Positions 5,178 through 42,170 of a stretch of 64,000 nt of DNA are shown here, piece by piece. Below the pieces are notes generated by a model. The model worked only from the letters and a program-made list of their open reading frames with translations. It was not told the DNA's origin and did no database searches. Each line of letters starts with the position of its first letter. Positions within the stretch are counted from its first letter, which is position 1. This DNA comes from Chthoniobacteraceae bacterium. GTDB taxonomy: Bacteria > Verrucomicrobiota > Verrucomicrobiia > Chthoniobacterales > Chthoniobacteraceae. The stretch covers positions 1 to 64,000 of the forward strand of contig CANJPY010000012.1 of assembly GCA_947476255.1 (NCBI GenBank), read 5' to 3'. The translations under genes and the position numbers were made by a program.

Positions 5178-5310
5178 GAGAGGGAACAAAATGAAGCTTG
5201 GAGGGGTGAAAAGGAGAGAATAATCGGTGTTTCTGAGAAAAAAAACAAATCAGAGATGTTCATTAAAGACCGGGCTCCACATCGCGGGCGATTCTGGGTA
5301 TTAGAAACCT

Positions 5311-6988: not shown

Positions 6989-7324
6989 TTAGCGCCAGAC
7001 CGAGGCGGTCACGGTGGCAATCACACTGACCAAGGTCGCGACTGCGAGCAATTGCGCGTGGGGGCGCAGTTCGGGTTCTTTGCGGACCCGCCACCAGAGG
7101 CCCAGGGTCCGGCCCAAAAAGAGCATCGCTGCGAGAAAAGGGAGCATGAAAATCCACTCTGGTTTGGTGCGGGCCACCGACTGATAAGCTGCGAAGAGGA
7201 GGCAGGCGCTGCCAAAAAAACAATTCATCGCAGTGGAGCGGCTGTCACTGATGCGCTTCAGCAGGACCCCGATGATGAGGATGACGAGCGAACTGACGGC
7301 GAGAACGATGGAAAGCGGGGTCAT
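6989..7324 (-). CDS. Small integral membrane protein, unknown
   Basis: Hypothetical protein of 111 residues with probably three to four membrane segments: residues about 4-22 (SIVLAVSSLVILIIGVLL), 33-48, 56-72 and 92-108. There is a short basic segment WWRVRKEPELRPH between the last two, suggesting a cytoplasmic loop. No family recognised. It lies downstream of the glnK copy on the same strand, but a strong terminator (7347-7383) separates them by only 23 bases from its ATG. It must therefore be expressed by read-through, from a promoter inside the terminator region, or from a later start. Even hydrophobic patterning supports a real gene; function unknown. Confidence 0.6.
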   Translation of the reverse strand: MTPLSIVLAVSSLVILIIGVLLKRISDSRSTAMNCFFGSACLLFAAYQSVARTKPEWIFMLPFLAAMLFLGRTLGLWWRVRKEPELRPHAQLLAVATLVSVIATVTASVWR

Positions 7325-7346
7325 GGGAAGAGAGGGGATGTTGGAG

Positions 7347-7383
7347 AAAAAAAGGAGCGACGGAAGTTTAATTCCGTCGCTCC
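7347..7383 (-). terminator. Strong rho-independent terminator after amt - glnK (minus copy)
   Basis: On the minus strand there is a perfect 12-bp stem (ggagcgacggaa / ttccgtcgctcc, 6-base loop) followed by seven T. It lies 37 bases after the glnK stop codon. Confidence 0.93.
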
Positions 7384-7420
7384 GGACTGGACAGTTCGCG
7401 GCAGGCGAACTTTGACAGCG

Positions 7421-7768
<348 letters not shown>

Positions 7769-7824
7769 TTAGTCCATTTTTCGGGCCGGCGCATGATGAA
7801 ACGCGCCGGCCCGGCGATTGATTT

Positions 7825-9666: not shown

Positions 9667-9773
9667 GGTTTGGATTGGTTTACGGTTTGTTGGGCGGGTC
9701 GTTTGTCAAACAACGCCGAAACGTGGATCGACTTTCCGGGAGGAAAGCCGGTCCACCCGCCGCCGCTTCCATC

Positions 9774-9790
9774 AGCAGTGTGTGTGCCAT
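9774..9790 (-). promoter_or_regulatory. Sigma-54-like promoter for amt copy 1
   Basis: The minus strand reads ATGGCACACACACTGCT against the sigma-54 consensus TTGGCACRNNNNTTGCW: the essential GG and GC are at the right spacing, with two mismatches. Transcription would begin roughly 100 bases upstream of the amt start codon. Confidence 0.55.
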
Positions 9791-10026
9791 ATTGTTTAAA
9801 GCATTGGATTGCAGGCATTTGATTTAAAGACACCCTTCTGGAAGGGGGTTGGCGAGATTGATAATTGATCGCGGTGTTCTAAAACGGACACCTTGAAAGG
9901 ACGCGGAATCACATTGCTGCTGGAAGTGCTTAAATTTGTACACATGCTCAAAAGCGGACACGGATTTATGGCTTTGAATTCTTACGTGAAAACATCAAAC
10001 TATTGATTGGCAGATGTTTAAATGTT

Positions 10027-10043
10027 TTGGCACGCGGTTAGCT
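10027..10043 (+). promoter_or_regulatory. Sigma-54-like promoter for amt copy 2
   Basis: TTGGCACGCGGTTAGCT matches the consensus TTGGCACRNNNNTTGCW at every fixed position but one (A for the second T of TTGC). It lies about 110 bases upstream of the chosen amt start at 10153. Confidence 0.65.
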
Positions 10044-10152
10044 ATAGGCTGTGGGTGTGGTGCGTGCTGCGGAAGCGGTGGCGGCCACGGAAAGCTCCCT
10101 TCGTGTGAGGGGGGCCTTGAAAAATGAAAAGCAACCACAATCAACCCCTCAA

Positions 10153-11763
10153 ATGAGTATGTTAAGAATACCGAAGTTTATGGCTCTGGCCGCGTGCCTC
10201 GCTGCCCTCAGTTTAACGTCGTCCCAGGGACAGGAAACTCCGCCCGCAGCGCCTCAGGCAAAGCCAGCGCCTGCAGCGGCGGTCGCCCCCGAGGCGCCGT
10301 CCGCGCCGGAGGCAACCCTGGAAATGCGGGTCAACGCACTCGAGGCGTACCTTCAAAACACCAATCCAGAGGACGCTTTTAAATCTCTGAAGGTAAAGAA
10401 AAAAAATGACAAGGGGGAAGAGGAGGAAGTTTTCCCAGAAGGCTTCAAGCAGAGCACCTTGGGTGTTGCGGGCCCCGGTCACAACGGGTGGATGATGACG
10501 TCCACCGCGCTGGTGCTCTTTATGACCCTGCCCGGGTTGGCTCTCTTTTACGGAGGGTTGGTGCGGAAGAAGAACGTCCTCAGCGTGCTCGCCCAGTGTC
10601 TGGGATGCGCGGGGATGGTGACTCTTCTGTGGTGGGCCTTCGGATACAGCCTCGTTTTCGGGAAAAACTTCGCCAGTCCTTACCTGGGCGGGTCTGAGTA
10701 TTTCTTCATGCAGGGCGTCGATTCCGCTCCGAACACCGACTATTCGTTCTGGATCTCGCACAACGTTTTCTCGATGTACCAGATGATGTTCGCGATCATC
10801 ACCCCGGCCCTGATCGTGGGAGCGATTGCGGAGCGTATGAAGTTCACCGCTGTGATGACTTTCATCGGGGCGTGGATGTTTCTCGTGTATTTCCCAATGG
10901 CCCACATGGTCTGGGGAGTCACAGGCTTGATGAACGGGGTTTGGAACAAGGAAGCCGTGATTCCTGCGATCGACTTTGCGGGTGGAACCGTGGTGCACAT
11001 GACCTCGGGGTGGAGCGCTCTGGTATTGTGCATGATTTTAGGAAAGCGCGCAGGCTTCGGAAAGGACCGCATGGCGCCTCACTCGATGGTTCTCTGTATG
11101 GTGGGGACCGGAATGCTCTGGGTGGGCTGGTACGGTTTTAACGCGGGTTCGGCCCTTGCCGCAGACGGAGTGGCCGCCAATGCTTTCACGACGACGACGC
11201 TCGCCGCCGCCACGGCTTCCTTCGTGTGGGCGCTCATGGAGCGCGTTCTGCGGGGGCATGCCTCCATTCTTGGTTTCTGCTCCGGGGCGGTCGCCGGTCT
11301 GGTGGTGATTACACCTGCCTGCGGTTTTGTGAACAGCACGGGAGCGGTGCTCATTGGGGTGGCGGCTGCTGTGGTGCCCTACATCTTCGTGATGCATTTG
11401 AAGGCTAAATTTGGCTACGACGATGCCCTGGACACCTTCGGGGTGCATGCGGTGGGCGGAACTCTGGGTGCGGTTTTGACCGGATTTTTGGCGGACAAAG
11501 CGGTGAACGCTAATTTGGACACGGCGGTGACGGCTGCGAAGGATGCGGCGGAACCCGGCAACGGGCTGGCCTCGCTGGTGGCCAACGGCGGTCTGGTGGG
11601 GGTTCAGTGCAAGGCGATTGCCTTGACGCTTGTGATCTCCATTGTAGCCACGCTCGTGATCGCTTTGGTGCTCAAGGCCGTTATGGGTCTGCGGCCGACG
11701 GCGGAGGTCGAGGACGCTGGGCTTGACATCAGCGAACATGGGGAGGAAGGCTACCTGCTCTAA
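10153..11763 (+). CDS. amt: Ammonium transporter Amt (copy 2), with exported N-terminal extension
   Basis: Second Amt channel, 536 residues from the chosen start. The upstream ATG at 10051 lies at the expected transcription start of the sigma-54-like promoter, and the reading MSMLRIPKFMALAACLAALSLTSSQGQ from 10153 gives a proper signal peptide, so I prefer 10153 (10159 is also possible). After the signal comes an Ala/Pro-rich linker, a short heptad-like stretch (LEMRVNALEAYLQN) and a Lys/Glu-rich segment before the first helix at GWMMTSTALVLFMTLPGLALFYGG. Pore histidines lie in GGTVVHMTSGW and FGVHAVGGTLG. It is not a recent duplicate of copy 1: the extensions and much of the channel differ, although the PII partners are nearly identical. 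It forms an operon with the glnK 60 bases downstream. Confidence 0.95.
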   Translation: MSMLRIPKFMALAACLAALSLTSSQGQETPPAAPQAKPAPAAAVAPEAPSAPEATLEMRVNALEAYLQNTNPEDAFKSLKVKKKNDKGEEEEVFPEGFKQSTLGVAGPGHNGWMMTSTALVLFMTLPGLALFYGGLVRKKNVLSVLAQCLGCAGMVTLLWWAFGYSLVFGKNFASPYLGGSEYFFMQGVDSAPNTDYSFWISHNVFSMYQMMFAIITPALIVGAIAERMKFTAVMTFIGAWMFLVYFPMAHMVWGVTGLMNGVWNKEAVIPAIDFAGGTVVHMTSGWSALVLCMILGKRAGFGKDRMAPHSMVLCMVGTGMLWVGWYGFNAGSALAADGVAANAFTTTTLAAATASFVWALMERVLRGHASILGFCSGAVAGLVVITPACGFVNSTGAVLIGVAAAVVPYIFVMHLKAKFGYDDALDTFGVHAVGGTLGAVLTGFLADKAVNANLDTAVTAAKDAAEPGNGLASLVANGGLVGVQCKAIALTLVISIVATLVIALVLKAVMGLRPTAEVEDAGLDISEHGEEGYLL

Positions 11764-11793
11764 CCTCAGCCACCTATTTACGAGCCTGCATAA

Positions 11794-12162
<369 letters not shown>

Positions 12163-12201
12163 CGGATCCGAAGTCGAACACGTGAAATCCACGTGGACCG
12201 C

Positions 12202-12248
12202 GGGGCCGGTGTCTAGGCGAGAGCCAGGACGCCGGCCTCCTTTTTTTT
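12202..12248 (+). terminator. Rho-independent terminator after amt - glnK (plus copy)
   Basis: A long GC-rich hairpin (about 16 paired positions with wobbles and one mismatch, loop gaga, core ggccgg/ccggcc) followed by eight T. It begins 40 bases after the glnK stop. Confidence 0.9.
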
Positions 12249-12325
12249 GGGGCGTCCGTGTTTTTGAGGGGGGTGTATTTTCTAGGGTGCGGCGTCCCTC
12301 CCGTTGTGATACAGTGTCGAAACCC

Positions 12326-13195
12326 ATGATTGGCGGTTCCACATCTGAAGACCGCGGCCCTTGGTTTAAAGTGGCTGGTCATCCTGTAAACGCGCCTTTG
12401 GCGTTGGTAGGGGGATGCATCGTTTCGATGCTGCTGACGACGGTGGCCCTTGCCTTCAACCACCAATGGGCGTCGTTGCTGCAGTTCTCGAGTGAGGCCA
12501 TCTTGCGCCGGGGCGAGGCGTGGAGGTTGGTCTCCTATATTTTATGGAACCCGCCCACGCTCTCGCTGGCGCTGGACATGCTGATGTTGTGGTGGTTTGG
12601 GCGGGAACTGGAGGCGTATTTCGGGCGCCGGATTTTTCTCAAGCTTTGTGCGGGGATCGTTTTAGCACCGGCGTTGGCGGGAGTCGCCGTCGGGTTTTTC
12701 TTTCCCTCGCAGTGGGTGGGGTTGCCTGGAACTTTTGCGCTGTTCGTGGCGTTTGCGACGATGGCGCCCAGCGTGACGTTGCTTTTTGGAATTTCTGCAA
12801 AGTGGACTGCGCTGGTTTTTCTGGGAATCCAGCTCCTGTCCTGTGTGGCGGAACATGCGTGGGGGCATTTTATTCATTCCCTGGTGTCTGCGGGTTTCGC
12901 CTTCGCGTACATCCGCGTGCAGCAGGGGCGTTGGGAAATGCCGGTGATTTCGCTGCCGCGCAAAAACAAGAACTTCAGGGTGCTGGAGCCGGTGCCGGTG
13001 CAGAAAAAAGCGGCGGCTTCGGTCGCCTTCCGGGTGGTTCAGGAAGAACCCGATGCGCTTGAGCTGATTGATCCGCTCTTGGAGAAGATTGGCCGCACGG
13101 GAATGGCGAGTTTGACCGAGAGTGAAAAGGCCCAGCTGGAAGTGGCAAGAGAGGCGCTGCTGCGCAAGGGGCCGTCAGGTCCCGCGCGCCCTTAG
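12326..13195 (+). CDS. Rhomboid-like membrane protein lacking the catalytic serine
   Basis: Multi-pass membrane protein of 289 residues. The start at 12326 (MIGGSTSEDRG) follows the glnK terminator; the longer frame to 12113 would overlap glnK and the terminator and is rejected. Rhomboid-like features: a run of hydrophobic helices, WRLVSYILWNP (compare the WRLxT...H region), and a late membrane His in HFIHSLVSAGFAFAYI that matches the family's HxxGxxxG helix position. The active-site motif GxSG reads GLPG, so serine protease activity is not expected. The cytoplasmic tail ends with ELIDPLLEKIGRTGMASLTESEKAQL, a short helical module common at the C-terminus of bacterial rhomboid relatives. Function is unknown; a chaperone or quality-control role as in other pseudo-rhomboids is inference. 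Confidence 0.75.
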   Translation: MIGGSTSEDRGPWFKVAGHPVNAPLALVGGCIVSMLLTTVALAFNHQWASLLQFSSEAILRRGEAWRLVSYILWNPPTLSLALDMLMLWWFGRELEAYFGRRIFLKLCAGIVLAPALAGVAVGFFFPSQWVGLPGTFALFVAFATMAPSVTLLFGISAKWTALVFLGIQLLSCVAEHAWGHFIHSLVSAGFAFAYIRVQQGRWEMPVISLPRKNKNFRVLEPVPVQKKAAASVAFRVVQEEPDALELIDPLLEKIGRTGMASLTESEKAQLEVAREALLRKGPSGPARP

Positions 13196-28646: not shown

Positions 28647-30023
28647 TTAGGGGGCATTCGCCGCATCCCGGGCGGTGGCGGGTGGCATCGGTTTATGCAC
28701 CACAACGTCCTTACTCCAGGCTTTCCAATCGGCCTCAAGTTGCCTCACCAAGTCCGGGTGTTGGGCCGCGAGATTGTTCTGCTCGGCGTTATCCTGCGAC
28801 AAATCGTAGAGCGCCAGGGACGGTTCTTTCGCACCCTTTTCGGGACCTGCAAAAGTCAACTTCCACTGGTCCTTGCGAATGGCCCACTGTCTTTCGTAGT
28901 CCCAACATAACAGGACGTGTGGTTGGCCCGTTTTGCCCTCGAGGAACGACAGCAGATTCACGCCGTCCTGAGGCCACTTTTTATCCGGTTCCACGCCGGC
29001 AAGAGCCAGAATGGTCGCGGTCAGGTCCATGTGGATGACTGGTTGCTTGTAGACTGCCGGCTTGAGGCGGCCCGTCCATTGGACAAACATCGGCACCCGG
29101 ATGCCGCCCTCCCATGTCTGCCCCTTGCCGCCGCGCAGAGGCGTGTTCAGGGACGCATTGGGAGCGTTCCTCGTGATTGGTCCGCCGTTGTCGCTGTGGA
29201 AACAAACCAGCGTGTTCTCTTCCAAAGCCGCCTCGCGCAACGCCGCAAGAACACGTCCGATATTATCGTCCATCGCCGCAAGCATGGCCGCGTATGTCCG
29301 GCGCTTCTTGTCCTCAATGTGGCTGAAACGCGCCAGATACGTCTCAAGCGCGTCCATCGGGGTGTGCACCGCATTAAAAGCCAGATACAGGAAGAACGGC
29401 TGCCCTCCGCCCTTCTGACGCTGGATAAACTCGACGGCCTCGCGTCCAAATGCATCGGTCGCGTACTCCGTGAGGGCCACGGGTTCATGCCCGCGCAGGA
29501 TCTGCGTGTACAGGTTTACCTTCGCGTCGGGCCCCTTGGGTTTGTCGGGAAAATAACTCCGTCCACCCCCAAGAAATCCGTAAAATTCATCAAACCCGCG
29601 CTTAAGCGGATGGCTCTCCGGCTGTTCCCCTAAATGCCACTTTCCCACAACGCCGGTACGATAACCCGCCGCCTTCAAATACTCCGAGATCGTGGGCACA
29701 TTACTGTTCAGGCCGGGCTTGCCGGGCGGCACCCAGTCGTGAACTCCGTCACGGTAATGGTAGCGCCCCGTAAGCAGGGAGGCGCGGGTCGGACTGCACA
29801 CGGTGCCGGTCACATAGCCATCGGTGAAACGAACACCCCGGTTGGCAATGGAATCCAAATGAGGCGTCGGCACGTCTTTACAACCCTGGACACCGCAGTC
29901 CGCGTAACCCATGTCATCGGAAACAATGTAGACGACGTTGGGTTTTGGAGCGGCGACGGTGGCGCCCCGCAAAGCGGCTGCAGGCACCAGCATGCAAAGG
30001 AGGAACAGGAAGCAGTGGAACAT
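28647..30023 (-). CDS. Exported sulfatase (Cys-type, formylglycine-dependent)
   Basis: Sulfate ester hydrolase of 458 residues with a signal peptide (about 1-21, ending LRGA). The N-terminal metal-binding segment NVVYIVSDDMGYADCG is followed by the maturation motif Cys76-Ser-Pro-Thr-Arg (CSPTRASLLTGR), whose Cys is converted to formylglycine by a separate enzyme not present in this window. VVGKWHLGE supplies the conserved Lys/His, and VCFHSDNGGP the C-terminal Asp/Asn of the metal site. Substrate probably a sulfated carbohydrate, not assignable further. It stands between the end of the large exported-protein operon (67 bases upstream, with a terminator) and the Gfo/Idh operon. Confidence 0.93.
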   Translation of the reverse strand: MFHCFLFLLCMLVPAAALRGATVAAPKPNVVYIVSDDMGYADCGVQGCKDVPTPHLDSIANRGVRFTDGYVTGTVCSPTRASLLTGRYHYRDGVHDWVPPGKPGLNSNVPTISEYLKAAGYRTGVVGKWHLGEQPESHPLKRGFDEFYGFLGGGRSYFPDKPKGPDAKVNLYTQILRGHEPVALTEYATDAFGREAVEFIQRQKGGGQPFFLYLAFNAVHTPMDALETYLARFSHIEDKKRRTYAAMLAAMDDNIGRVLAALREAALEENTLVCFHSDNGGPITRNAPNASLNTPLRGGKGQTWEGGIRVPMFVQWTGRLKPAVYKQPVIHMDLTATILALAGVEPDKKWPQDGVNLLSFLEGKTGQPHVLLCWDYERQWAIRKDQWKLTFAGPEKGAKEPSLALYDLSQDNAEQNNLAAQHPDLVRQLEADWKAWSKDVVVHKPMPPATARDAANAP

Positions 30024-30057: not shown

Positions 30058-30080
30058 AAAAACGTCCCCGCCGCCGGGAC
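30058..30080 (-). terminator. Candidate terminator of the four-gene exported-protein operon
   Basis: On the minus strand there is a GC-rich hairpin gtccc/gggac with a 7-base loop, one G, then five T. It lies about 10 bases after the stop of the 1888-residue protein gene. The stem is short but all-GC apart from one pair. Confidence 0.6.
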
Positions 30081-30089
30081 CCGCAGGCA

Positions 30090-33000
30090 TTACTCAACCA
30101 CCACCTCAACCCGGTAAAAACGCTGCGCCGTTTTTGAAATGGAATCCACAAACTCCATTTCAGCATCCAGCCCATTGAGGTCAGGGCTCGCCACCGCACT
30201 CCATGTCTTCAAATCACCGCTTGTCAGCACGCGGTACCGGACCCCGGCCTTACCAAACCAACGAAGCGTGAAGACATCATTGGTGACAGCCGTGCTTAAG
30301 ATGCGCAGGAAATCTGCAGCCGAATTGGGATCCGTCTTGGCCCGCCACTCCGCTTCGTTGGACTGGCCGTCTCCATCGGCGTCTTGGGTAGCGCCTCCCA
30401 CGGAATCATATTTACTGCCAAAAACACGCTGCGCCCACGTTTCGTAGGTTTCAATCGTGCCAGCGGTGACATCAAGAGTCCGGAGCACGGGTTCTGCGGA
30501 ATCGTATTTGTTGCTCCCATCTTGAAGCGCACGGACCATGACCTTCCCAACACCCGTCGGGACGAGTGTCGTGCCTTGAAGTTTCGCCGGGCCGCTTACC
30601 AATTCAAAAGCCACTGGCAGTTTGGAAGTCGCCGTGGCAGAGAGCTTCAGAGAGCCTTGCGCGAGCAGACGATTCGCAACGGCCGGAAAAGTGATGGTCT
30701 GTTGTGTCAGCGGCGTTCCTGGATCATTCGCGAGCGCATCGTATTTTATCGAGGCCCGCACTTTGCAGACCGCTTTGCCGGATCCACCCTCGCCAACAAA
30801 CATGGCTTTCACGATGTAGCTCCCGTCCGCTGGGACTTCCCAGCCGTTGATTGCCTCGCCAAACCCTTCTCCCCAGCGGTTGGCCTCCGCTAAAATCTGC
30901 GAGTTCTCACCGATAATTTGCAGGGTAACATCCCGGTTCGGAGAAACCTCCAACGCCTCAAGCAGCACGCGTTGCCCACGCTCCAAATCAATGCGCCAAT
31001 TGCCGCCCTCCAAAGACTCCACACCCATGAGGCTCCCATCCAAGGGCATCTTCAACCTTGGCAGCGCAACCGTTGCCGGCGCGCCAGCCCTCGAGCTCCC
31101 AGCGTAAAACACCTGGATCACCGCCGCAGGCGTACTCCGGGACGGATCTCCCTCCGTGCCCCCTCGGACAAACACGAGGTAAATGCCAGGTTCCGAGAAT
31201 TTCTTGAACACACCCTCATACCTGTCCTTTGTTGCATTTCTCCACAGTTCCACCGCCCCGCGTTTTGAACCGTCCGGTCCAATGACGTCTCCCCACACAC
31301 GCTCTGGAGACCCGCCGTCGGGCATCATCACGCCCGACACGTAAAAACGTGCCGCGCCCTTTTGCGGAGTTTGAACCGCCATGCTTGCCTTCCAAATAAA
31401 CGGCGGATCGTCAGCCGTTATGTAAGCGGACCCCACAAACGCATTGATCGACTTGAGCCCATCCTGCGCTTTGTCAAAAACGCCGTCCCCATTGTCGTCA
31501 AACTGCGCCGGATTGTCTTTGCCAAACGTCGCAGCGGCAATGAGTTCGGCGAAGGTCATGGCTTCTTCATAACTTTCACGCAGGTCGCGCCCCCGCGCGA
31601 TGGCGCTCCAGATCCAGTTGCTAAAGGTCGACCACTGCCCGTTCACATAGGTGTTCTTCCTTTCGCTGCTCGTACTGGAGATAAAGATGCGGCTCTTGTT
31701 TGGATTGGCGGCGCCCTTCACGAATATGCCCGAATAATCGGCGTCCACAATGACCTGCACCTGCGCGCGCGAAGCTGCCTGCAGTGTATCCAACCACAGC
31801 TTCAACGACGCCGGCGTGATGACCTCTCCATTGGCGCACAACAGCCCCTTGGGACTCGCCTCTCCAACCAGAAACAACGTCAAGACGCCCAGTTGGCCGT
31901 CCGCATTGGCCCACCGTTGAATGGCGTCTTTCAAGTTCGCCCCGGTCGCCCCTGCCGCCTTGCTGACCAAAAGCGCGGGATCCGCAAAAACCTTGATATC
32001 CTCCTCCAACACGCGCCTCCGTGTTGCCGCTTCGACCGCGTACTTCGCGAGTTTGCCGGCATCTGCGGAGCCGGTCCACGTGGTTTTTCCAGTGCCAAAC
32101 ACCACCAACCGACTCCGCATCGACTGCTGCGTGATATGCACAAGGGAAGGCGCACTCACCTGCCCCCAGACATCGCGTGCCTGGACCAAGACGGTGTAGG
32201 GCGCACCGCTTTCGCTAAAGCCGCCGACCTTTGACGACCACAACCCCGTCGCATTGTCCAAATGAAAGTCCACCTCCGGAAGACTCGTGACGGGCGCGTC
32301 TCCAGTGGGGCGGTAGCCCGGCGGCACAATCACGCCAAACACCCGCTCCACGGCCAGGGCGGACGACACGGACGCCGTAATCGTGGTTTCACGCGTGCCT
32401 TGCAACACCACATCTCCCCCCACAACACTCGCCACGGGCCGGCCCGAATCCGCCACGATGTCGAACCCGAGTTTTCCCGCTGAAAGCAACGCCCCGCCCG
32501 CGCTCGCCTGCGGCGTTTGCAGGCCTGCCATGGCCGCAACTGCCGCCAGATGCGCCTCGCCCAGCGTCTTCCCCGAGGCCACCGCACTCCACCACATCAT
32601 GGAATAACTCACCAACCCGTTCGCCGCCAGATGCGCCAGTTGGTTGATTCCAGTCGAACTCAACACCAACCGACGCGCCGCATATCCATCCGGCTTTGCC
32701 ATCGCCGTCGTAATCCGGCCTGCATAGCAACTTTCCACAAGCACCAGCACCGAGAGTTTCGGATGCGCCGCCTGCAGGGTGTCCAGCCACTGATCCAGCT
32801 CCGTACCCGTCACGGTTTCGGTTTCCGAGAGGATAAAAAGACCGTCGCCATTGTTGGATATACGCCCGTGGTCGACGAGGTACACAAAGAGTTGCTCCGT
32901 GCCTGCATCCACCGCGCCCCCGTCCCTCAGGGCCGCCGCCAGAGCGGCTCGCGTGGGAGGTGCCGCGGCGCGGCTGCCATACCCCAGCGTCCGGATATCC

Positions 33001-35756
33001 GCATTCCGCAGGCCGCGATACTTCAGCACATCCATCGCTCGCGAAGTCAGTGTTTCGGAGGCCAGCCACACCGGGTCATTGACACTCCGGCGTCCGTCGA
33101 CAAGAAGCGCCCGGAACTTGTGCAGTGTCCCGGGGTCGGACTGCACCACGTTGATCCACGCCACTCCCGTGCGTCCCGCGCCGTTGGTCGCAACGACCTG
33201 ATCAATGCCCGGTTTGCTCCCAGCCGTGTACAGCCCGCCCACCGCGGTGGTCCCGCCCGTTACAAGCGTTCCACTCGAGACACTGCCCCCACTGCGGCTG
33301 CTGCCCAACTTCCACACCAACGTGCCATCATCATCGATGCTGCTGAACTGCATACTCTCCCCCGTCCCGAGCGTTAAGACCGCGGGCGTCAGCCTCAAAT
33401 GCGTCGCCGGGTTTTGCAAATAAACAAGCGCCCCGTCGTTCCCGCCCCCGACTACATCCGGCGCGCCGTCCCCGTCAAAGTCCGCCACAGCCGCGCTCAA
33501 CCCGGCACGGAAGCCATTAAAACTCCCGCCCCAAACCTTGCTCTCCAAGCCAAAACCGCCGCTGCTTTTGCCCAGAAAACGCCAGATCCGCCCATCGGCA
33601 TCCGACGCCAGAATGTCCGCATTTCCATCATTGTCGGTATCCAAAACGGAAAGGGCGGTGCCTCCCAAGATCGGATTGCCCGAAAGCAAGTCGGCACTCG
33701 TAGCCGTTGCCACGTACGGCACCACACCCGAACGTTTTGCAAAGTGCAGCACCCTGCCTTCCGTCCCGTCCAAAACCAACAGGTCCGGACCTCCGACCTT
33801 GTTCCAGAAGGCGGGATGCACCGCGCCGGCACCGACCTTCAGGTTTCCCACCCACTCAAAAAGAACCGCTCCGCTGGACGTTGCCCGGTAAAAACGCAAC
33901 ACACCGTCGTCCGAACCCACCACGAGATCCGCGCGGCCATCACCACTCCAGTCTCCGAGCGCCGGATACACCGCGCCACCCGGCCAGTTCGCAAGACCCG
34001 CCAGCGCGCTGGCATCCGCCTTCAACTCCGGTGAAAACGGCGAACCCGTGTTGCGGTAAAAACGCACCGCACCCCCGCTTCCGCCCACAATCAAATCGAG
34101 GTCCCCGTCGCCATCCACATCGCCGAGAGCCGGCGCACTCGCTCCGTTGGGAAGTTGAAACGTGCCCGGACTCCCGTTGAAAACGTTTTTGAAGAACCCG
34201 CCACCGCCTTTTTCAAAAGCCTGGCTGGCTGGGAAAAACTGCAGGTTGAGCACCAACTTCTCGCCCCGCCGGCGGGACACGCCGCCCTCGAGGATCCCGC
34301 CATCCCCCGCACTGTCCGGGATCCGCGGCTGGGACCCCAGCAAGTACTCGGCCAAAAGCGTGACGCCGTCGCCATCGGTATCGGAGGTCGCGCCCTGCGT
34401 GAGCGCGCCGTAATGCCACATCTCGTACCAGTCGGGAAGGCCGTCCAGATCGCTATCCGCAGCGACCGGGTAATAGGTTGCGACCGCCGAGGTATCCGCA
34501 TTTAACGTGAACGTGGCCTGCATCAGTCCGATCCCAGCGGGTGATTCCTGCCGGATGCCGTTCACCAACCAATGCCCAAATCTGTACCCGTTGACTTCGG
34601 GTTGTGCGCTGCTCGTGGTGACCAGGGTTCCCAGCGTCAGATACGTGTTTTTGGAAACAATGCCCGGCGGCACACTGACCTCCGTGTACTTCACATAATT
34701 GGAGGAAAAAGCGAGCGCCAGTTTCTCCCCGCGCCTGCGCGAAACACCGCCCTCGAGCACCGCCCCATCCGAAGCGCTGTCGGAGATGCGGGGTTGCGTG
34801 CCGTCGGCGTATTCCTGGGCAAGCGTGCGGCCGTCACCATCCGTGTCACTTGTTCCCGAGATGAGAAGGGTTCCGTAGTGGTAGAGCCGGTACCAGTCGG
34901 GAAGCCCCTTATTTCCAGTGTCCTGCGCGATAGGGACGTATTCCGCCACCGCGGTTGTAGTCCCGGACAACACGATGTTCACCTGACTCAAAGCAATGCC
35001 ATTGCCGTTCTCCTGCCGCACCCCGTTGATCTTCCATTGGGTAAAGCGGTAGCCCTGCGTCTCGCCGCTGAGATTCGCGGTGGCGACAGTGGTGCCCGCC
35101 TTCACATATTCACGGCGCGCGACAATCCCCGGTGGGTTGGAAGATTCGGTGTAAAGGTGGTAGCCCGGCCCGACGGTCACCGCGATACGCTCCCCGCGCC
35201 GCCTGGAAACACCGCCCTCAAGAATCCCCCCGTCAGCGGCGCTGTCGGGAATCCGCGGTTGCGAGCCCTTCACATATTCGTTGAGCAGGGACACGCCGTC
35301 GCCATCGGTGTCGCTGGAACTTGAAATCGCGAGCGTGCCGTAATGGAATAGCTTGTACCAATCGGGAACGCCCTGTGCAGAGGAATCCAGATCCTCTTTG
35401 AGGTACACCGCGACGGCATCGGTGTTTTCGAGAATCGGAAAATTAAACGCCGTGGTAGAGATGCCAAAACTGTCGGCCTGCCGGATGCCGTTGAGTTTCC
35501 AGTAGGCAAACCGGTATGCCCCCGACTGCATCGGCGGCGAGGAGACCGAGACCGTCGTATTCACATCATAATAACGACTCCCCGTCACGATCCCGGCCGG
35601 GTCCGAACTCTGCGTCAGTTTGACCTGCGTCGCCGTGGTCGCCGCGTATACGAAGCCCGCAATGACGACAAGCAGCGCCACCCATGCGCTTTTGGCGCGA
35701 GTGGAAAGTCGCTTGGGGGGGGATTCGCGAGGCGTCACCGGATGCGGGCCGTCCAT
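30090..35756 (-). CDS. Giant exported protein with two clan CD (C13-like) peptidase domains, the second degenerate
   Basis: 1888 residues, exported or anchored by a hydrophobic segment at 24-40. Three tandem units follow, each with a beta-sandwich-like part (GYRFTQWKINGVRQ...), LPDWY..YHYG, a calcium-binding-like SDTDGDG and the phrase EGGVSRRRGE; that phrase recurs at 181-189, 336-344 and 491-499, exactly 155 residues apart. FG-GAP-like calcium loops lie at 545-775 (DVDGDGDLDL, DWSGDGRADL, DTDNDGNADI, DFDGDGAPDV). A legumain/caspase-fold domain at about 880-1100 has His963 in YLVDHG and Cys1010 in LVESCYAG. A second such domain at about 1215-1440 aligns by LWLDTLQAA but reads LVGEAS (Glu1299) and IVDADYSG (Asp1340), so the dyad is lost. 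The C-terminus has another DADGDG site and a beta-rich end. Last gene of a four-gene operon. Confidence 0.8.
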   Translation of the reverse strand: MDGPHPVTPRESPPKRLSTRAKSAWVALLVVIAGFVYAATTATQVKLTQSSDPAGIVTGSRYYDVNTTVSVSSPPMQSGAYRFAYWKLNGIRQADSFGISTTAFNFPILENTDAVAVYLKEDLDSSAQGVPDWYKLFHYGTLAISSSSDTDGDGVSLLNEYVKGSQPRIPDSAADGGILEGGVSRRRGERIAVTVGPGYHLYTESSNPPGIVARREYVKAGTTVATANLSGETQGYRFTQWKINGVRQENGNGIALSQVNIVLSGTTTAVAEYVPIAQDTGNKGLPDWYRLYHYGTLLISGTSDTDGDGRTLAQEYADGTQPRISDSASDGAVLEGGVSRRRGEKLALAFSSNYVKYTEVSVPPGIVSKNTYLTLGTLVTTSSAQPEVNGYRFGHWLVNGIRQESPAGIGLMQATFTLNADTSAVATYYPVAADSDLDGLPDWYEMWHYGALTQGATSDTDGDGVTLLAEYLLGSQPRIPDSAGDGGILEGGVSRRRGEKLVLNLQFFPASQAFEKGGGGFFKNVFNGSPGTFQLPNGASAPALGDVDGDGDLDLIVGGSGGAVRFYRNTGSPFSPELKADASALAGLANWPGGAVYPALGDWSGDGRADLVVGSDDGVLRFYRATSSGAVLFEWVGNLKVGAGAVHPAFWNKVGGPDLLVLDGTEGRVLHFAKRSGVVPYVATATSADLLSGNPILGGTALSVLDTDNDGNADILASDADGRIWRFLGKSSGGFGLESKVWGGSFNGFRAGLSAAVADFDGDGAPDVVGGGNDGALVYLQNPATHLRLTPAVLTLGTGESMQFSSIDDDGTLVWKLGSSRSGGSVSSGTLVTGGTTAVGGLYTAGSKPGIDQVVATNGAGRTGVAWINVVQSDPGTLHKFRALLVDGRRSVNDPVWLASETLTSRAMDVLKYRGLRNADIRTLGYGSRAAAPPTRAALAAALRDGGAVDAGTEQLFVYLVDHGRISNNGDGLFILSETETVTGTELDQWLDTLQAAHPKLSVLVLVESCYAGRITTAMAKPDGYAARRLVLSSTGINQLAHLAANGLVSYSMMWWSAVASGKTLGEAHLAAVAAMAGLQTPQASAGGALLSAGKLGFDIVADSGRPVASVVGGDVVLQGTRETTITASVSSALAVERVFGVIVPPGYRPTGDAPVTSLPEVDFHLDNATGLWSSKVGGFSESGAPYTVLVQARDVWGQVSAPSLVHITQQSMRSRLVVFGTGKTTWTGSADAGKLAKYAVEAATRRRVLEEDIKVFADPALLVSKAAGATGANLKDAIQRWANADGQLGVLTLFLVGEASPKGLLCANGEVITPASLKLWLDTLQAASRAQVQVIVDADYSGIFVKGAANPNKSRIFISSTSSERKNTYVNGQWSTFSNWIWSAIARGRDLRESYEEAMTFAELIAAATFGKDNPAQFDDNGDGVFDKAQDGLKSINAFVGSAYITADDPPFIWKASMAVQTPQKGAARFYVSGVMMPDGGSPERVWGDVIGPDGSKRGAVELWRNATKDRYEGVFKKFSEPGIYLVFVRGGTEGDPSRSTPAAVIQVFYAGSSRAGAPATVALPRLKMPLDGSLMGVESLEGGNWRIDLERGQRVLLEALEVSPNRDVTLQIIGENSQILAEANRWGEGFGEAINGWEVPADGSYIVKAMFVGEGGSGKAVCKVRASIKYDALANDPGTPLTQQTITFPAVANRLLAQGSLKLSATATSKLPVAFELVSGPAKLQGTTLVPTGVGKVMVRALQDGSNKYDSAEPVLRTLDVTAGTIETYETWAQRVFGSKYDSVGGATQDADGDGQSNEAEWRAKTDPNSAADFLRILSTAVTNDVFTLRWFGKAGVRYRVLTSGDLKTWSAVASPDLNGLDAEMEFVDSISKTAQRFYRVEVVVE

Positions 35757-35779
35757 GGTTATTCGGGTTAAAGCCCTCG

Positions 35780-37918
35780 TTACTTGGTGACAGGAACCAC
35801 CCAGAAGCCATCCGCCCCCGTGTCAAAGCCGTAGGAGTTGATCTTGGCTGGCCGCTCGTCCGGCCCCACGCGGCGGGTCTTGGGATCCCACTGGTTGATG
35901 ACGCCAGGCGTGCCTGCCTCCTTCGCGCGCTTGACCTCCTCAGGCGTGGCCTCGCGCAGACCCATGAGGTCAAAGAGGAACTTGCGTCCTGCAAGAGATG
36001 TACCAGTCCCAGAAGCTAGGGAACTATCGCACCGTATCTGCGTTTTACTGATGTCCGATGGTCCTGTGCCGGTTGGATACAGGTTCAAAGCGAAGTAGTG
36101 GTATCCTCCCTCTCTGTCATCGAAATCAATACGCATGGAGATCGGGACACCTGCCTGAGTCTGAACAACGTATGAACTTGGATTGTTCTCAGAGACCACC
36201 TTTTTACCGTCCAACCAGATAGTGACCACATCATCAACACCAATGTCCAAGGTGTAGTTTCCTGTAACAGTGGGCACAAATTCGCAATTCCATCGAACGC
36301 TGTAAGGCACAAACGGGATACCGGCGACTCCAGAGGGCGACCAGCCGTAGTTCAACAAAGGAACGTCATCAATTCTCTGGAAATATTGACCGGTGAAATC
36401 TGCATTGGAGAAGTACTCCGCAGAGGCCCCTTGCACCATTGCCGATTGTGTTCCAGCACTTAACAATCGACCATCTAACAGCTTAATGTTCGGGTTCTGC
36501 GTGGCAATCAGCCAGTACCACACCGAAAGAAAGTCCGTATCGTTTAAAGGCGAGCGGCTGATTTTCAACTCAGGAAGTCCTTTATCCGCCGGAATCCGGA
36601 TAAAGTCCAAGTTCAACAGCCCTCGTTTGTCTTTCGCGAGAATCTCCAGTTGCACCTCGCCAAAGTCCGTGGCCCAGTCCTTCGTGACGTCCCACGTAAA
36701 GCGGTGTACGGCGCCCGTTGTGATGCCCGTCCCCAACTGGACGCCCGTTCCCTCGGCGAAACTCGTGATGGGAATGACGTCAGCGAGCGAATTGCCGCCG
36801 TTCTTAAAGGCAAGCGCGGCCGTCTGGACTGTGGCGTCGTCCGCGTCCTTGACGACATAATCGACATCCACAAGCGACGTCCCCGGGCGCCTTGCCTGCG
36901 ACAGAATACTCGGCAGAGGAACGGCGTTACCCGGCTCGGGCTGCGCAAGTCGGTACGTGCGCTTCCACAAGCGAACGACGTGGTCGCCTCCATGAGCTGC
37001 GACGATATCGCCAGAAACCGTTTCAGCAATACAAGCCCACTTGCAATCCCATTCCTTCAACAATTCACCTGAAACTATATACAATCGCATTGCGCTGAAG
37101 CCCCACTGATATTCGCACTGCACGCAAAGCAGGCCATCACGCAGAAAACAGAGTCTCTCCGGGCGAGCTGACGAATAACCCCCGGGAGTCGCGAACTGGC
37201 GCACAAAGCCGCCATTCAAGTCGAATATTTGTACCCTGCTGTTACCCGCATCTCCGACAGCAAGGAAGCCCTCCGGCGAAACAGCCAGACCATGGGGCTC
37301 CTGAAACTCGCCATAAAAGCTGCCCTGCTTCCCAAACTTGAACAAAAATTTGCCGTTCGCGTCGAACACCTGTACCCGATGATTGTTGCGATCTGTGACA
37401 AACACAGTGCCCGTCTTGCTAACCGCAACTTGATACGGGGAGTTGAACAACCCGTCCGTGCTTCCGGCACCGCCAAACTTCGCCACAAACTTTCCATCCA
37501 AGTCGAAGATCTGCACGCAGTTCCCATCGCAATCAACAGCGTACAAACGGTTGTTCGGACTGATTGCAAGCCCCCCGGGACCCACAAACTGTCCGTTTCC
37601 ACTACCCTGGGAACCAAAGCGTTTTACGAAATTGTAAGCCTTATCAAACTTGCGGATCTCGTGATTATTGTAATCGCTAATGTAGATGTTTCCGTCAGCA
37701 TCAACCGCGATGCCATGGGTGGCGCCAAACTCGGCACTCCCGTTCTCGTTCTGCCCTCGAAACTCTTTCGCCAAATACCAAGTATCCTGCGGCATCCGCT
37801 GGGCCTGAGCCCCATTCGGCAGCAGCGCGCCTAGCAGGATCCAACACAGGACACTCCGCAGGACGGTTCGAAAGACTGAGCACGAAGTCATACCGGAAGA
37901 AAGGTGGATGGGATACAT
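35780..37918 (-). CDS. Exported NHL-repeat and PA14-domain protein
   Basis: From the Met at 37918 the protein has 712 residues with a signal peptide (hydrophobic FRTVLRSVLCWILLGALLPNGAQAQ after about 15 residues; the Met at 37891 is also possible). An in-frame ATG at 37990 overlaps the stop of the upstream gene (ATGA) but would bury the signal. Residues about 64-243 hold four NHL-type units (HGIAVDADGNIYISDYNNHEIRKFD and similar), which build a beta-propeller. Residues about 498-613 are a PA14 domain (AEYFSNADFTGQYFQRIDDVPLLNYGW ... DIGVDDVVTIWLDGKKV), usually carbohydrate-binding. The C-terminus KRAKEAGTPGVINQWDPKTRR is unassigned. Third gene of the operon, 23 bases before the peptidase-domain gene; probably cell-surface or periplasmic. 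Confidence 0.82.
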   Translation of the reverse strand: MYPIHLSSGMTSCSVFRTVLRSVLCWILLGALLPNGAQAQRMPQDTWYLAKEFRGQNENGSAEFGATHGIAVDADGNIYISDYNNHEIRKFDKAYNFVKRFGSQGSGNGQFVGPGGLAISPNNRLYAVDCDGNCVQIFDLDGKFVAKFGGAGSTDGLFNSPYQVAVSKTGTVFVTDRNNHRVQVFDANGKFLFKFGKQGSFYGEFQEPHGLAVSPEGFLAVGDAGNSRVQIFDLNGGFVRQFATPGGYSSARPERLCFLRDGLLCVQCEYQWGFSAMRLYIVSGELLKEWDCKWACIAETVSGDIVAAHGGDHVVRLWKRTYRLAQPEPGNAVPLPSILSQARRPGTSLVDVDYVVKDADDATVQTAALAFKNGGNSLADVIPITSFAEGTGVQLGTGITTGAVHRFTWDVTKDWATDFGEVQLEILAKDKRGLLNLDFIRIPADKGLPELKISRSPLNDTDFLSVWYWLIATQNPNIKLLDGRLLSAGTQSAMVQGASAEYFSNADFTGQYFQRIDDVPLLNYGWSPSGVAGIPFVPYSVRWNCEFVPTVTGNYTLDIGVDDVVTIWLDGKKVVSENNPSSYVVQTQAGVPISMRIDFDDREGGYHYFALNLYPTGTGPSDISKTQIRCDSSLASGTGTSLAGRKFLFDLMGLREATPEEVKRAKEAGTPGVINQWDPKTRRVGPDERPAKINSYGFDTGADGFWVVPVTK

Positions 37919-37986
37919 GGGGTGCGCTTGGAAGGGCCGTGGGTGCAACGGCGGGGCAGGTTTTGATTTTCGAAAGGCGGAAAGCT

Positions 37987-40614
37987 TCATGGCTGGGTGG
38001 TGGGCGCGAGGGACCAATCGGACGAAGAAAGCCCCTGCGGGTTCGTGACCTCCGTCCAACCTTTGGCGCCAAAGGTCGGTTTCACGGACAGCGCCCCGAC
38101 GAGGCTGCGCTTCGCTTTGTCGCTGGGGGAAACATACTCACCCGTCAGCGCTCCGGTTGTATTGTCAAACCGCAGCGTCAGGGCGGGGACATTGCCCCCT
38201 GCCTGCGGGACCACTTCGACACGCGGCGCCGCGTTCAGCGAAAACGAAACCCGCCACTGGTACGGAGCCGCACTGGCACCGGAGAGAGGGTCCCGCGCCG
38301 TCAGCAGAAATTTCGCCCCGGGTTTAAGGAAATCCGGCAGAGCGGAGGCCACCGGAGGCACCCACCGCAAACCGTCCTGATTGACAAAGGACAGACGTTG
38401 CACAGAGGAAACGTTCCCGGCCGCCTCGTTGTAAGCCAGAAGCCCTTGTTTTGTTGCGATATTGCCCCCCTGTTGCTCGAGGGCGCCTTCCCCCGAGGCG
38501 TTGCCCACGCAGACCTTCCAACCCTCCGCAGGACGGGTCAGGTAAACGTATCCCAGCAGCGTCCGGGTCGAGATGGAAGTGGCACTGGATGCGCTGCTGG
38601 TCTCGCAGAAGGGGAAATTAAACGTGCCTCCGTTGAGTGTGCGCAGCGAGGCACTGCCCGAACCCGTGTACCCGGGAGCGCGTGTGGTCCATGAAACGCG
38701 GCCCGTATTAAGCACCTGCAACTGAAGCAACACCCGGTTGGCAGACTGGACCGTGTAGGAACCCGTCGGCGCGGCCGCAGGCAACGCTGCGGGGAGAGCG
38801 GCGGGAAGGCATTTGAGCGCGGTTGTCAGGTAAGTGCCGCCGGCGAGCGAAGCGGTGTCCTGAACCGACACGTTCACCGAAGGCGGCACACTCGAGCAAT
38901 CCAACTCCAGACCCAAGGTTTGCCCCGGATTGACCGCGGCTTTCGAGGGCGCGAACACAAACACCGAAGGCTTCCCTTCCACGGGCGCAAACGCCCCCGC
39001 GTAGGAGCGCGACACAGGCAGGTACGCGCGCACGGTCTTCGCTTTTCCTTCGAGCACCACGGGAGCTTCGACGTAGGTGAGTTTCGCGGTAACGGCGCCG
39101 GTGGTGGCGATGTCAAAGGAGACCTGCCCCCGGTAAAGCGCGTGATCCCCGAGCGCGTCCTTGTCATCTTGAAGCAGTGCCTCGTAAGACGCCGCCAGGG
39201 CGGACCAGGGCTTCGCTTCCACGCGGAACGGCACGCTGTCAAACTGAGCCGCGGTTCCCGCAAACGTGCGCACAAAACGCACGATGTATTCTCCCGAACC
39301 CGGAAGCGCGCGTAAGGGCAGCAACAAGGACCCGTTCACCGGCACCGAACCGCTCATGCCTGGCAGCGGGTTTTTGAACACCCCACCCGTGCCGATAAAG
39401 ACCTGGTAGGTGGTGGAACGCACCGTTGCAGCCGCCGGCGCGAGCTGGATGGGCAAAGTCGCCGCAGTGCCCTGGATCGTTTTTACATTCACGGGCTGGG
39501 TAACGACCAGACTGCCCAGCGAGCCGCCGACGGAGAGAACGGCAGGCGCGCTTGTTTTCGACCCGAACCGGTTGGTGACCACAACGTCATAAACACCTGC
39601 ATCGGTGAGTTTGAGCGCGGTCAAGGCGAGCTCCGCCGTGGTCGCCTGCGGCAGCACCACTCCGGCGTGGCGCCACTGGTAGGTGACAGGCCCCGTGCCC
39701 GTCACACTGACACGGAGTTTGGCACTGCCCCCGGCGCTTGCACTGACACTTTCGGGTTGTTTGAGAATCCCCACGGGCGTGTTCAAACGCAAAGTCGCCA
39801 CGGAACTCGTGAGGGTCCCCGCGATATTGGTGGCCACCACCTTGTAATCGCCCAACTGGGAGGCGCCCACCGCGCTCACCGTGTAGGAGGCACTCACGGC
39901 ACCGGCAATGGCGGAGCTGCCCTTGAACCACTGGTACTGGATGGGCTCGATGCCTTTGACCTCCACGGCGAACGTCGCACTGCTTCCGGAATCCACGCTC
40001 AAACTCTGGGGATTGGTGATGAATAACGGCCCGCAAGGGAGAGTCGTGCGGAAAGCGGATGCGGCCCCACCTTTCCAGACAAGGCCGTTATCGAGCAGCG
40101 ACAAACACACGAGGCTCCCCGGAATGCTGCTGGGGGCCTGCCAGTTCCATTTGGACCCTGCGCTGACCTCGTTGTACAGGGTGGAGATGCCCACGGTTTT
40201 CCCGTCGAAAAACCGGACCACCAACGGCGTGCCTTCCACCGGCAGCGTCTGGCCGGAGTCGGCCGCCCCTTGGACAAAGGTTGAGACGAGGCTAAACCGG
40301 CCCGCACCCCCGCCCCCACTGTCTCCGATGGACGTGGTCCGAAAGGCGGCATTGGCAGAAGCGCCCCCGGTGAGCGGGACAAAAACGCCTGCAAACGGCG
40401 CCGTGGAAGTGCCCTTGGTGTAATACCCGAGCTGGACGCCGGCCCCATCCCCATCCTCGGCCCCACCTGAACTCAAGGCGGCTCCCTTGCTGTCGAGAAG
40501 CAACGTGGTCGCGGTGTTTTGCCACGCCACCTCCGTGAGGTTCTGCGCGCGCGCGCTCGCGCCCGCTCCCGCGAGGGCGAGTACGAACACAACGATAGGG
40601 AGAAAAAACCTCAT
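37987..40614 (-). CDS. Exported protein with tandem Ig-like repeats
   Basis: 875 residues from MRFFLPIVVFVLALAGAGASARAQ, a textbook signal peptide; the frame is open another 102 codons upstream into the preceding gene but those have no start context. Two immunoglobulin-like domains are clear at about 210-290 and 295-370: QSLSVDSGSSATFAVEVKG...YQWFKGSSAI...LGDYKVVATNIAG and ESVSASAGGSAKLRVSVTG...YQWRHAGVVL...AGVYDVVVTNRFG. The remainder is Ser/Thr/Ala/Gly-rich and beta-predicted by eye, with repeated phrases of the type 'GQTLGLELDCSS' and 'RVEVVPQAGGNVPALTLRFDNTTGALTGEY' that recur in Verrucomicrobiota surface proteins. No catalytic motif. Second gene of the operon (19-base gap upstream), probably an adhesive or scaffold component. 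Confidence 0.78.
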   Translation of the reverse strand: MRFFLPIVVFVLALAGAGASARAQNLTEVAWQNTATTLLLDSKGAALSSGGAEDGDGAGVQLGYYTKGTSTAPFAGVFVPLTGGASANAAFRTTSIGDSGGGGAGRFSLVSTFVQGAADSGQTLPVEGTPLVVRFFDGKTVGISTLYNEVSAGSKWNWQAPSSIPGSLVCLSLLDNGLVWKGGAASAFRTTLPCGPLFITNPQSLSVDSGSSATFAVEVKGIEPIQYQWFKGSSAIAGAVSASYTVSAVGASQLGDYKVVATNIAGTLTSSVATLRLNTPVGILKQPESVSASAGGSAKLRVSVTGTGPVTYQWRHAGVVLPQATTAELALTALKLTDAGVYDVVVTNRFGSKTSAPAVLSVGGSLGSLVVTQPVNVKTIQGTAATLPIQLAPAAATVRSTTYQVFIGTGGVFKNPLPGMSGSVPVNGSLLLPLRALPGSGEYIVRFVRTFAGTAAQFDSVPFRVEAKPWSALAASYEALLQDDKDALGDHALYRGQVSFDIATTGAVTAKLTYVEAPVVLEGKAKTVRAYLPVSRSYAGAFAPVEGKPSVFVFAPSKAAVNPGQTLGLELDCSSVPPSVNVSVQDTASLAGGTYLTTALKCLPAALPAALPAAAPTGSYTVQSANRVLLQLQVLNTGRVSWTTRAPGYTGSGSASLRTLNGGTFNFPFCETSSASSATSISTRTLLGYVYLTRPAEGWKVCVGNASGEGALEQQGGNIATKQGLLAYNEAAGNVSSVQRLSFVNQDGLRWVPPVASALPDFLKPGAKFLLTARDPLSGASAAPYQWRVSFSLNAAPRVEVVPQAGGNVPALTLRFDNTTGALTGEYVSPSDKAKRSLVGALSVKPTFGAKGWTEVTNPQGLSSSDWSLAPTTQP

Positions 40615-40633
40615 TACAGGAGACGCGAAAGGT

Positions 40634-41656
40634 TCAAGGATACGCAAACGGGACCGCCGACGGGAGCAGGCTGGCCCCCGTGCTTCCCACCCGACGCAGC
40701 AGGAAGGCGCCCCCCACCGGAACCGGGGCGGTGTTCTGGTTGGCAAAGGAACCGACCTGTTCCCAGTTGGCGCCGGTGTGGTAGTAGATGTTCCAAGAAG
40801 CGCCGTTCCAGAGCATGACTTTGTCGGCCTGCGAAGCGGCGGCGGCTGTCTTCCACCCGGGAAGCCCCTGGATTTGCAAACCAGCAAGGGTGTTTGCGAG
40901 GGGAAACCGCATGGCGACAAAGGCGTCTCCCGTTCCCGGAATAGGCGTGAGTTCCGGCTTCACGCTGACAACGCCGCCGAGAGGGACGTCCAAGCCCCGG
41001 TTGGATTTTGAAACCAAAAACACGCCCTGTTCGGGGCGGATCACCACGTTGTTTTGGACGTCCTTGGACCCTGTTTTTCGCCAACTCGTGCCGTCATGAA
41101 AGTAGGAGCTCCACTGGGTCCCACCGAGCATCCGGACAACATCGGCTTCCGCTTCCGTGGCCCCCGTCTGGAGCCGCACCGGCGTCGAGACTCCCCCAAA
41201 AGTGCTCTCCAGAGTGTGCGCGGGGAAAATTTCGAAGGTCGTTTCAGGCGGGGCAAGGCCGTCCAGAGACTGGCCTTCCGCGTCCACACTCAACGTATCC
41301 CCTGTATTTGCGCTGATCAAAAAGGTTCGTCCCGCGCCCGCACCCGAGCGAATTTTGACAAAGTGCGGCGTTTTGGCGAACTGCGCCCCGGTCCAGTTGG
41401 GAGCTTGCGCCTTTAAGGAGGAGCCGCCGGCGGTGACGATTTGTCCGAAATACACAGAGGGCCGGGTGAAAGGCAGCCCCATTCCGATTCGAGCGGGGGC
41501 CTGCACCGAGGCCGCGGGAATGGTTGCTTTCACAAAACCAACGGGCTCGGAAGCCACGACGGAGGCGGCCTGCGCGGCCCCTGTGCCGCCAAAAAACGAA
41601 GCCGCCAGGAACAACGTCGGCAACATTGCCGGCAAGATTGGCTTGTGGGCGTTCAT
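40634..41656 (-). CDS. TIGR02597-like exported protein of Verrucomicrobiota
   Basis: 340-residue exported protein with a signal peptide (about 1-30, ending GAAQA). The mature start SVVASEPVGFVKATIPAASVQAPARIGMGLPFTRPSVYFGQI resembles the uncharacterised family TIGR02597 found in Verrucomicrobiota; I name it from memory of that opening (xPVGFVxxTIP). The middle has phrases of the type WSSYFHDGTSWRKTGSKD and WNIYYHTGANWEQVGSF, duplicated once, so the protein looks like two related halves. No function is known. It is the first gene of the four-gene exported-protein operon and reads away from the HNH gene; the promoter should be in 41657-41858. Confidence 0.75.
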   Translation of the reverse strand: MNAHKPILPAMLPTLFLAASFFGGTGAAQAASVVASEPVGFVKATIPAASVQAPARIGMGLPFTRPSVYFGQIVTAGGSSLKAQAPNWTGAQFAKTPHFVKIRSGAGAGRTFLISANTGDTLSVDAEGQSLDGLAPPETTFEIFPAHTLESTFGGVSTPVRLQTGATEAEADVVRMLGGTQWSSYFHDGTSWRKTGSKDVQNNVVIRPEQGVFLVSKSNRGLDVPLGGVVSVKPELTPIPGTGDAFVAMRFPLANTLAGLQIQGLPGWKTAAAASQADKVMLWNGASWNIYYHTGANWEQVGSFANQNTAPVPVGGAFLLRRVGSTGASLLPSAVPFAYP

Positions 41657-41858: not shown

Positions 41859-42170
41859 ATGGAGGGCACCTGTCCGATTTGCGAGCGCGTCGAGACTCTC
41901 ACGCGCCATCATCTCATTCCACGAACCCGCCACCGCAACAAACGGAACAAACGGGAATTCGAGCGCAGTCTCGTGCGCCAAACCGTTAGCATCTGCCGCC
42001 CCTGCCACTCTCAAATCCATGTGTTGCTCACGGAAAAGGAACTGGAACGCGCTTGGAATACTGTTGAAAAACTCCTCACCCATCCGGAAATCCAACGCTT
42101 CGCCCAGTGGATCTCGACCAAACCACGCGGTTTCAAATGCCCGGCAAAGACGACCGCCACCAAGGGGTGA
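41859..42170 (+). CDS. Small HNH-type zinc-binding protein
   Basis: 103-residue protein with the pattern of a stand-alone HNH nuclease domain: Cys5-x2-Cys8, RHHLIPRT (His17/His18), Cys46-x2-Cys49-His50-x3-His54 (ICRPCHSQIH), so one treble-clef zinc site with a candidate catalytic His18. The rest is a helix LLTEKELERAWNTVEKLLTHPEI and a basic tail. It resembles a widespread family of about 100-residue HNH proteins of unknown role. No restriction, toxin or phage genes are adjacent; neighbours are the divergent TIGR02597-like gene and, 185 bases downstream, a DUF1501 gene. Whether it cuts DNA is unproven. Confidence 0.82.
   Translation: MEGTCPICERVETLTRHHLIPRTRHRNKRNKREFERSLVRQTVSICRPCHSQIHVLLTEKELERAWNTVEKLLTHPEIQRFAQWISTKPRGFKCPAKTTATKG

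Follow-up and report, generated by a model that had tools for sequence, protein, structure and literature searches.

On balance, the last two genes of a four-gene cluster from a Chthoniobacteraceae bacterium (contig CANJPY010000012.1; its first 64,000 nucleotides, the whole stretch analysed, are called the window here) probably represent MID-REP, an exported recognition complex of two subunits with exchangeable modules, in which binding between the subunits is predicted. "MID" is the name given here to the domain shared by the gene 3 proteins, spotted upstream of relatives of the giant protein encoded by gene 4, and "REP" to the repeat array that opens this giant. We could not find the MID-REP pair described in the literature searched, nor did we find a paper there on the tandem of peptidase C13-type domains carried by the giant or one naming TIGR02597, the family of gene 1 (subscription journals lay mostly outside the search). 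An earlier sequence-only reading had proposed that the region holds an undescribed system of exported proteins with binding modules (Ig, PA14, propeller), and both points are supported. Its emphasis lay on the peptidase, and it had missed both the MID domain (gene 3) and the giant's REP array.

The four ORFs were confirmed on the minus strand, from 41656 to 30090, and are co-directional and tightly packed, as had been claimed. Gene 1 (40634–41656, 340 aa) encodes an exported protein of the TIGR02597 family (NCBIfam E = 5.8e-21, 74.8 bits, above the cut-off of 50), and gene 2 (37987–40614, 875 aa, starting with the ATG at 40614) an exported Ig-domain protein with two I-set domains. Both are accessory to the MID-REP pair. 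Gene 3 (35780–37918) encodes the MID protein, and gene 4 (30090–35756) the giant REP protein of 1888 aa. The ORFs of the Ig protein and of gene 3 became shorter once the true starts were used. For gene 3 the start candidates were 37990, 37918 and 37890, the first giving a 4-base ATGA overlap with the stop of the Ig gene. The gaps between the genes are thus 19 nt, −4 to ~97 nt depending on this start, and 23 nt.

Downstream of the giant, a terminator-like hairpin with a T run (30064–30080, minus strand, a consensus match only) precedes a sulfatase gene on the same strand (28647–30023), which starts 66 nt after the giant. Such hairpins did not occur more often in the region than in shuffled sequence (19 vs 20.1), so that a transcript end behind the giant at this hairpin is only suggested. 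No PEP-CTERM or LPXTG sorting motif and no hydrophobic C-terminal helix was present in the four translations, whose C-termini were read directly. On the other side, between the cluster and a DUF1501 gene, a 103-aa HNH-nuclease-like ORF (CPIC...HHLIPR...CRPCH) was found on the plus strand (41859–42170).

The MID protein has a signal peptide, an NHL beta-propeller (37160–37732), the MID domain of ~187 aa (36428–36988), a PA14 domain (36095–36430, E = 5.5e-9) and a conserved C-terminal tail (35789–35977, GLREATPEEV..RAKEAGTPG..INQW..KINSYGFDTG..WVVP), all on the minus strand. The MID domain is the constant part and gave no match in Pfam or NCBIfam. The propeller is a swappable head, replaced in relatives by an RCC1 propeller or leucine-rich repeats (LRR). 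Most NHL-type MID proteins carried a QDxW motif (e.g., MPQDTWY, GGQDNW) after the signal peptide.

The giant, also on the minus strand, opens with three REP units of ~150 aa (34242–35618), its constant part. These are followed by FG-GAP (integrin-type) repeats (33387–34226, E = 3.5e-17), a peptidase C13-type domain with intact His963 and Cys1010 (domain 1, 32454–33119), an Ig-like linker (32121–32447), a pseudo-C13 domain of the same fold in which the catalytic His and Cys are replaced (domain 2, 31470–32114), and a C-terminal TSP3 and beta domain (30093–30476). The last is nearly unique in the window's genome; as a genome-wide sorting tag it was rejected, having only one weak second match there. 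Each REP unit consists of a divergent InlB-type beta repeat, a DxDGDG calcium-type loop and a GGV cap, and from these loops and weak TSP3/InlB matches we infer that REP may bind calcium. Arrays had three units, with four in some proteins and two in one, and lay at the protein start in most. In one protein of the window's genome (G000:C50; G numbers denote genomes, G000 being that of the window) REP lies deep inside. There, a 5762-aa frame (L071, L108) has two internal REP arrays, and the preceding MID protein has 994 aa and NHL repeats.

The evidence for the pair came from gene order. In a reciprocal search, full REP arrays (E < 1e-30) were sharply split from generic single units. This search and a search of relatives yielded 29 distinct REP genes with a readable upstream flank (G009:C239, which starts at a contig end, was excluded), and in 28 of them MID was the gene directly before REP on the same strand. 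The same arrangement was then predicted in writing for a class-wide scan and held in all seven new loci that could be judged, so that overall MID preceded REP in 35/36 testable loci (the window and 34 others, with one exception). The exception, in G184, is a REP protein with C13 lacking a MID gene; its upstream neighbour is a PIN-like ORF, by reading the sequence. From the opposite side, the MID profile had matches in 37/388 Verrucomicrobiota genomes, and the strong ones, viewed in context, had a REP-array gene immediately downstream, apart from G229:C25, whose next gene has just short REP-like repeats, and G002:C68, which runs off its contig. The spacing was 2–90 nt in 27 pairs. A fusion of MID and REP in one ORF was never seen among the loci examined, and these loci had no other conserved neighbour, including downstream. 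Nearly all MID and REP proteins had a Sec-like signal peptide in a crude test of the N-terminus. The window's genome holds three pairs (C12, C45 and C50).

The two domains also occurred together. Among the 388 genomes, most of them apparently fragmented draft assemblies, 14 had both, one had REP only and none a strong MID only (p ~1e-24), and among 57 relatives the same seven genomes held REP and MID and 50 held neither (p ~4e-9); these p values are indicative only, the genomes not being independent. The distance matrices of MID and REP correlated over 28 pairs (Mantel r = 0.91), and when partners were swapped only within genomes holding several pairs, the true pairing ranked first among 864 permutations, without a tie. 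This shows that MID-REP pairs move as units. A spread on plasmids was rejected: MID had no match there, and REP one weak match, from Enterococcus.

Co-variation is no proof of MID-REP binding, because tight linkage alone yields shared ancestry. MID and REP could thus be co-expressed exported proteins that form no complex and stay together only through a shared operon. Correlated trees are expected under such linkage, and both families are assembled from common extracellular modules. We consider this unlikely, though the strongest of the alternatives: MID and REP kept order and strand in nearly all testable loci, which span many families and share no other neighbour, whereas at such distances an operon of unrelated secreted proteins has normally fallen apart.

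Both partners keep their constant domain while the other modules are exchanged. The heads of MID proteins were NHL or NHL-like propellers in the window, G002, G279, G315, G110, G229, G121 and the two other pairs of the window's genome (G000:C45, G000:C50), RCC1 propellers in G192, G267, G221, G013 and one G279 locus, and BspA-type LRRs in G072, G115 and G081. PA14 was added to the MID protein in the window, and Ig domains were fused to MID in G192. The payloads of REP included FG-GAP alone, FG-GAP with the C13 tandem, Ig arrays with an FGE domain (G000:C45), and F5/8C, LCCL and MBG domains (G121). Five REP proteins had cohesin and/or dockerin (G072, G098, G081, G315, G229), several of these matches being weak. 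In G279 separate genes encode the REP/FG-GAP and the C13 portions of the giant. In G013 (L110, G013:C23:64001-82412, 4847–12830), five tandem RCC1-type MID genes precede one REP gene, resembling a set of alternative heads.

In the mechanism that we propose for the MID-REP pair, the REP array would be a calcium-stiffened stalk outside the cytoplasm and would dock the MID domain. The complex would then show an exchangeable head for recognition (propeller or LRR), contributed by MID, beside an exchangeable payload contributed by REP. Surface display is assumed here, since no anchor motif was identified. In the window, the putatively active C13 domain would cut or transpeptidate a recognised target, or a partner protein, at Asn/Asp, and the dead C13 domain might act as a regulator or as a substrate-holding platform, placed like the C-terminal control domain of legumain. 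A more specific version is offered tentatively, as a possibility less probable than the complex itself: MID-REP may be a dedicated docking pair, a combinatorial kit joining any head with any payload, with one branch carrying a legumain-type protease or transpeptidase under a dead twin. If true, bacteria would have a two-subunit recognition-effector system of a new kind. Verrucomicrobiota genomes encode many very large exported proteins without an assigned role, and for these the MID-before-REP rule predicts partners and separates two constant domains from the parts that vary. Module swapping complicates annotation, yet it makes the docking testable with few expressed domains.

The modules also allow for a cellulosome-like polysaccharide-binding scaffold, with MID and REP organising enzymes on (sulfated) glycans. 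Cohesin-dockerin pairs follow the same idea, with modular secreted proteins that carry a beta-sandwich and its calcium-loop partner, and the cohesin and/or dockerin of the five REP proteins, the F5/8C, LCCL and FGE-sulfatase domains of others, and in the window PA14 and the nearby sulfatase gene would fit, as would the sulfatase-like genes near two other loci. However, the MID and REP constant domains matched neither Pfam cohesin nor dockerin, the pairs examined contained no glycoside hydrolase or lyase, and the sulfatase-like genes of the other two loci (L070, L027) are encoded on the opposite strand. Sulfatases are common in the phylum, and those near the three MID-REP loci may be its background. 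We therefore rate such a scaffold as rather unlikely, a little below mere linkage of secreted proteins.

Other known modules resemble parts of the pair. RTX adhesin extender repeats are tandem beta repeats with calcium-type loops that serve as a stalk (PMC7493085), and REP resembles them as well as the InlB B-repeat and TSP3 modules in its beta repeats and loops and in the stalk role proposed for it; it differs in being a three-unit N-terminal array coupled to a partner gene. For MID, weak relatives directly preceded an FGE/SUMF1 domain in 14/17 ORFs of Verrucomicrobiota (L049–L063), whereas MID proper is longer, is tied to REP and sits in a protein without FGE. These distant FGE-adjoining relatives suggest where MID came from.

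With a profile of the C13 tandem (its two peptidase-like domains), the module was detected in 9/388 Verrucomicrobiota genomes, with a patchy distribution, and 15 homologous modules were aligned. Domain 1 kept its His and Cys in 15/15 modules. Domain 2 had lost the His in every module and, except in G184, also the Cys at the aligned site (14/15). Three further modules in G449 kept the dyad of domain 1 (3/3), and the two with a complete domain 2 lacked the catalytic residues there. Both domains are homologous (hhalign probability 100, E = 2.5e-47). Against Pfam C13, domain 1 matched in 14/15 homologues (best E = 1.1e-10), while that of the window alone stayed below the gathering score of 22.8 (E = 5.5e-4, 20.5 bits). 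In the PDB, its profile matched asparaginyl endopeptidases and GPI transamidase, and its AlphaFold2 model (pLDDT 86) had an asparaginyl endopeptidase as best Foldseek match (4e-8), with the caspase-8:FLIP-L complex also among the matches. Domain 2 modelled alone (pLDDT 84, pTM 0.82) matched GPI8/legumain with TMq ~0.6–0.7.

As judged from alignments and predicted models, the tandem joins a live legumain-type fold to a dead one through an Ig domain, and domain 1 is a member of peptidase family C13, its activity being predicted from dyad and fold. The "two peptidase domains" reported earlier are hence both of C13/caspase type in fold, but only the first has the His/Cys pair. The gingipain family C25 was rejected, and C13 fits; Pfam C25 gave no match in the genome, which by itself shows nothing, as it was silent in every control genome too. 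Pfam PF01650 gave no match in the window's genome although a C13 domain is present, so Pfam-based counts of C13 in the phylum are likely underestimates.

Legumain (asparaginyl endopeptidase) and the GPI8 transamidase (C13, clan CD) are exported proteins with the fold and His/Cys dyad of domain 1. Legumain is Asn/Asp-specific and restrained by its C-terminal domain (PMC4357240), for which reason a regulatory role would be our first choice for the dead C-terminal domain of the giant. This second domain holds the place of the legumain control domain, but the C13 enzyme of the giant sits inside an 1888-aa multidomain protein, and the Ig domain and dead C13 replace the prodomain. An active caspase-type fold is also combined with an inactive one in gingipains (C25), separase (C50) and caspase-8/c-FLIP-L; in contrast to these, the giant has the active domain first, the Ig domain between and the dead domain last, and its sequence is C13. 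Arrays of caspase-like domains in which some repeats lack catalytic residues were described for large surface proteins and polymorphic toxins (PMC3482391). Here, however, there is no toxin or immunity gene, and the order is fixed in all homologues, the first domain alive and the second dead. As a natural pairing of active and dead legumain-family domains, the tandem bears on the control of caspase-type enzymes and is relevant to the search for peptide ligases.

The tandem also occurred in large proteins without REP (9/15 modules; L025, L026, L028–L034), the peptidase therefore having a life outside the pair, and most MID-REP pairs lack C13, which makes the peptidase a payload and not a general maturation enzyme. 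In L028 the tandem stands behind beta-helix/NosD repeats. That the MID tail marks substrates of the C13 enzyme was rejected: the tail was found without C13 in five genomes (G315, G110, G229, G442, G457), and C13 without the tail in two (G192, G267). Occurring with and without C13, the tail is no dedicated processing signal.

These results bear on the sequence-only reading, which took the four genes as one surface assembly matured by its own peptidase. In a survey of gene order in Verrucomicrobiota, the closest relative of the giant was in a second Chthoniobacteraceae species (MAG G002, CANJZW010000029.1), which had all four genes in the same order, with proteins ~43–58% identical and other flanking genes. 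One scan of genome contigs gave this sister species as the only match, and the complete order was found in no genome beyond G000 and G002. The order kept under different flanks speaks for a four-part assembly, as does the presence of processing peptidases and transamidases among C13 enzymes. Yet an order shared with just one other genome is not a conserved unit: genes 1 and 2 are missing from all MID-REP loci except those in G000 and G002, and the unit that is conserved is genes 3 and 4. The maturation role is not supported, given the pairs lacking C13, the tandems lacking REP and the indifference of the tail to C13. We regard the four-part assembly as improbable. That the giant is a polymorphic-toxin-like conflict protein, with C13 releasing or acting as a toxin, is the least credible reading, since despite the caspase-like domains of such toxins, some without catalytic residues (PMC3482391), no toxin domain follows the C13 pair, the payloads are binding modules and no conserved small immunity gene lies downstream.

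TIGR02597 was detected in 3/10 genomes with the C13 tandem, above the cut-off only in G000 and G002. Genes 1 and 2 appear to make up a small separate unit. A second TIGR02597 and Ig gene pair was present in G002, away from MID-REP (L120, G002:C157, 122–3281).
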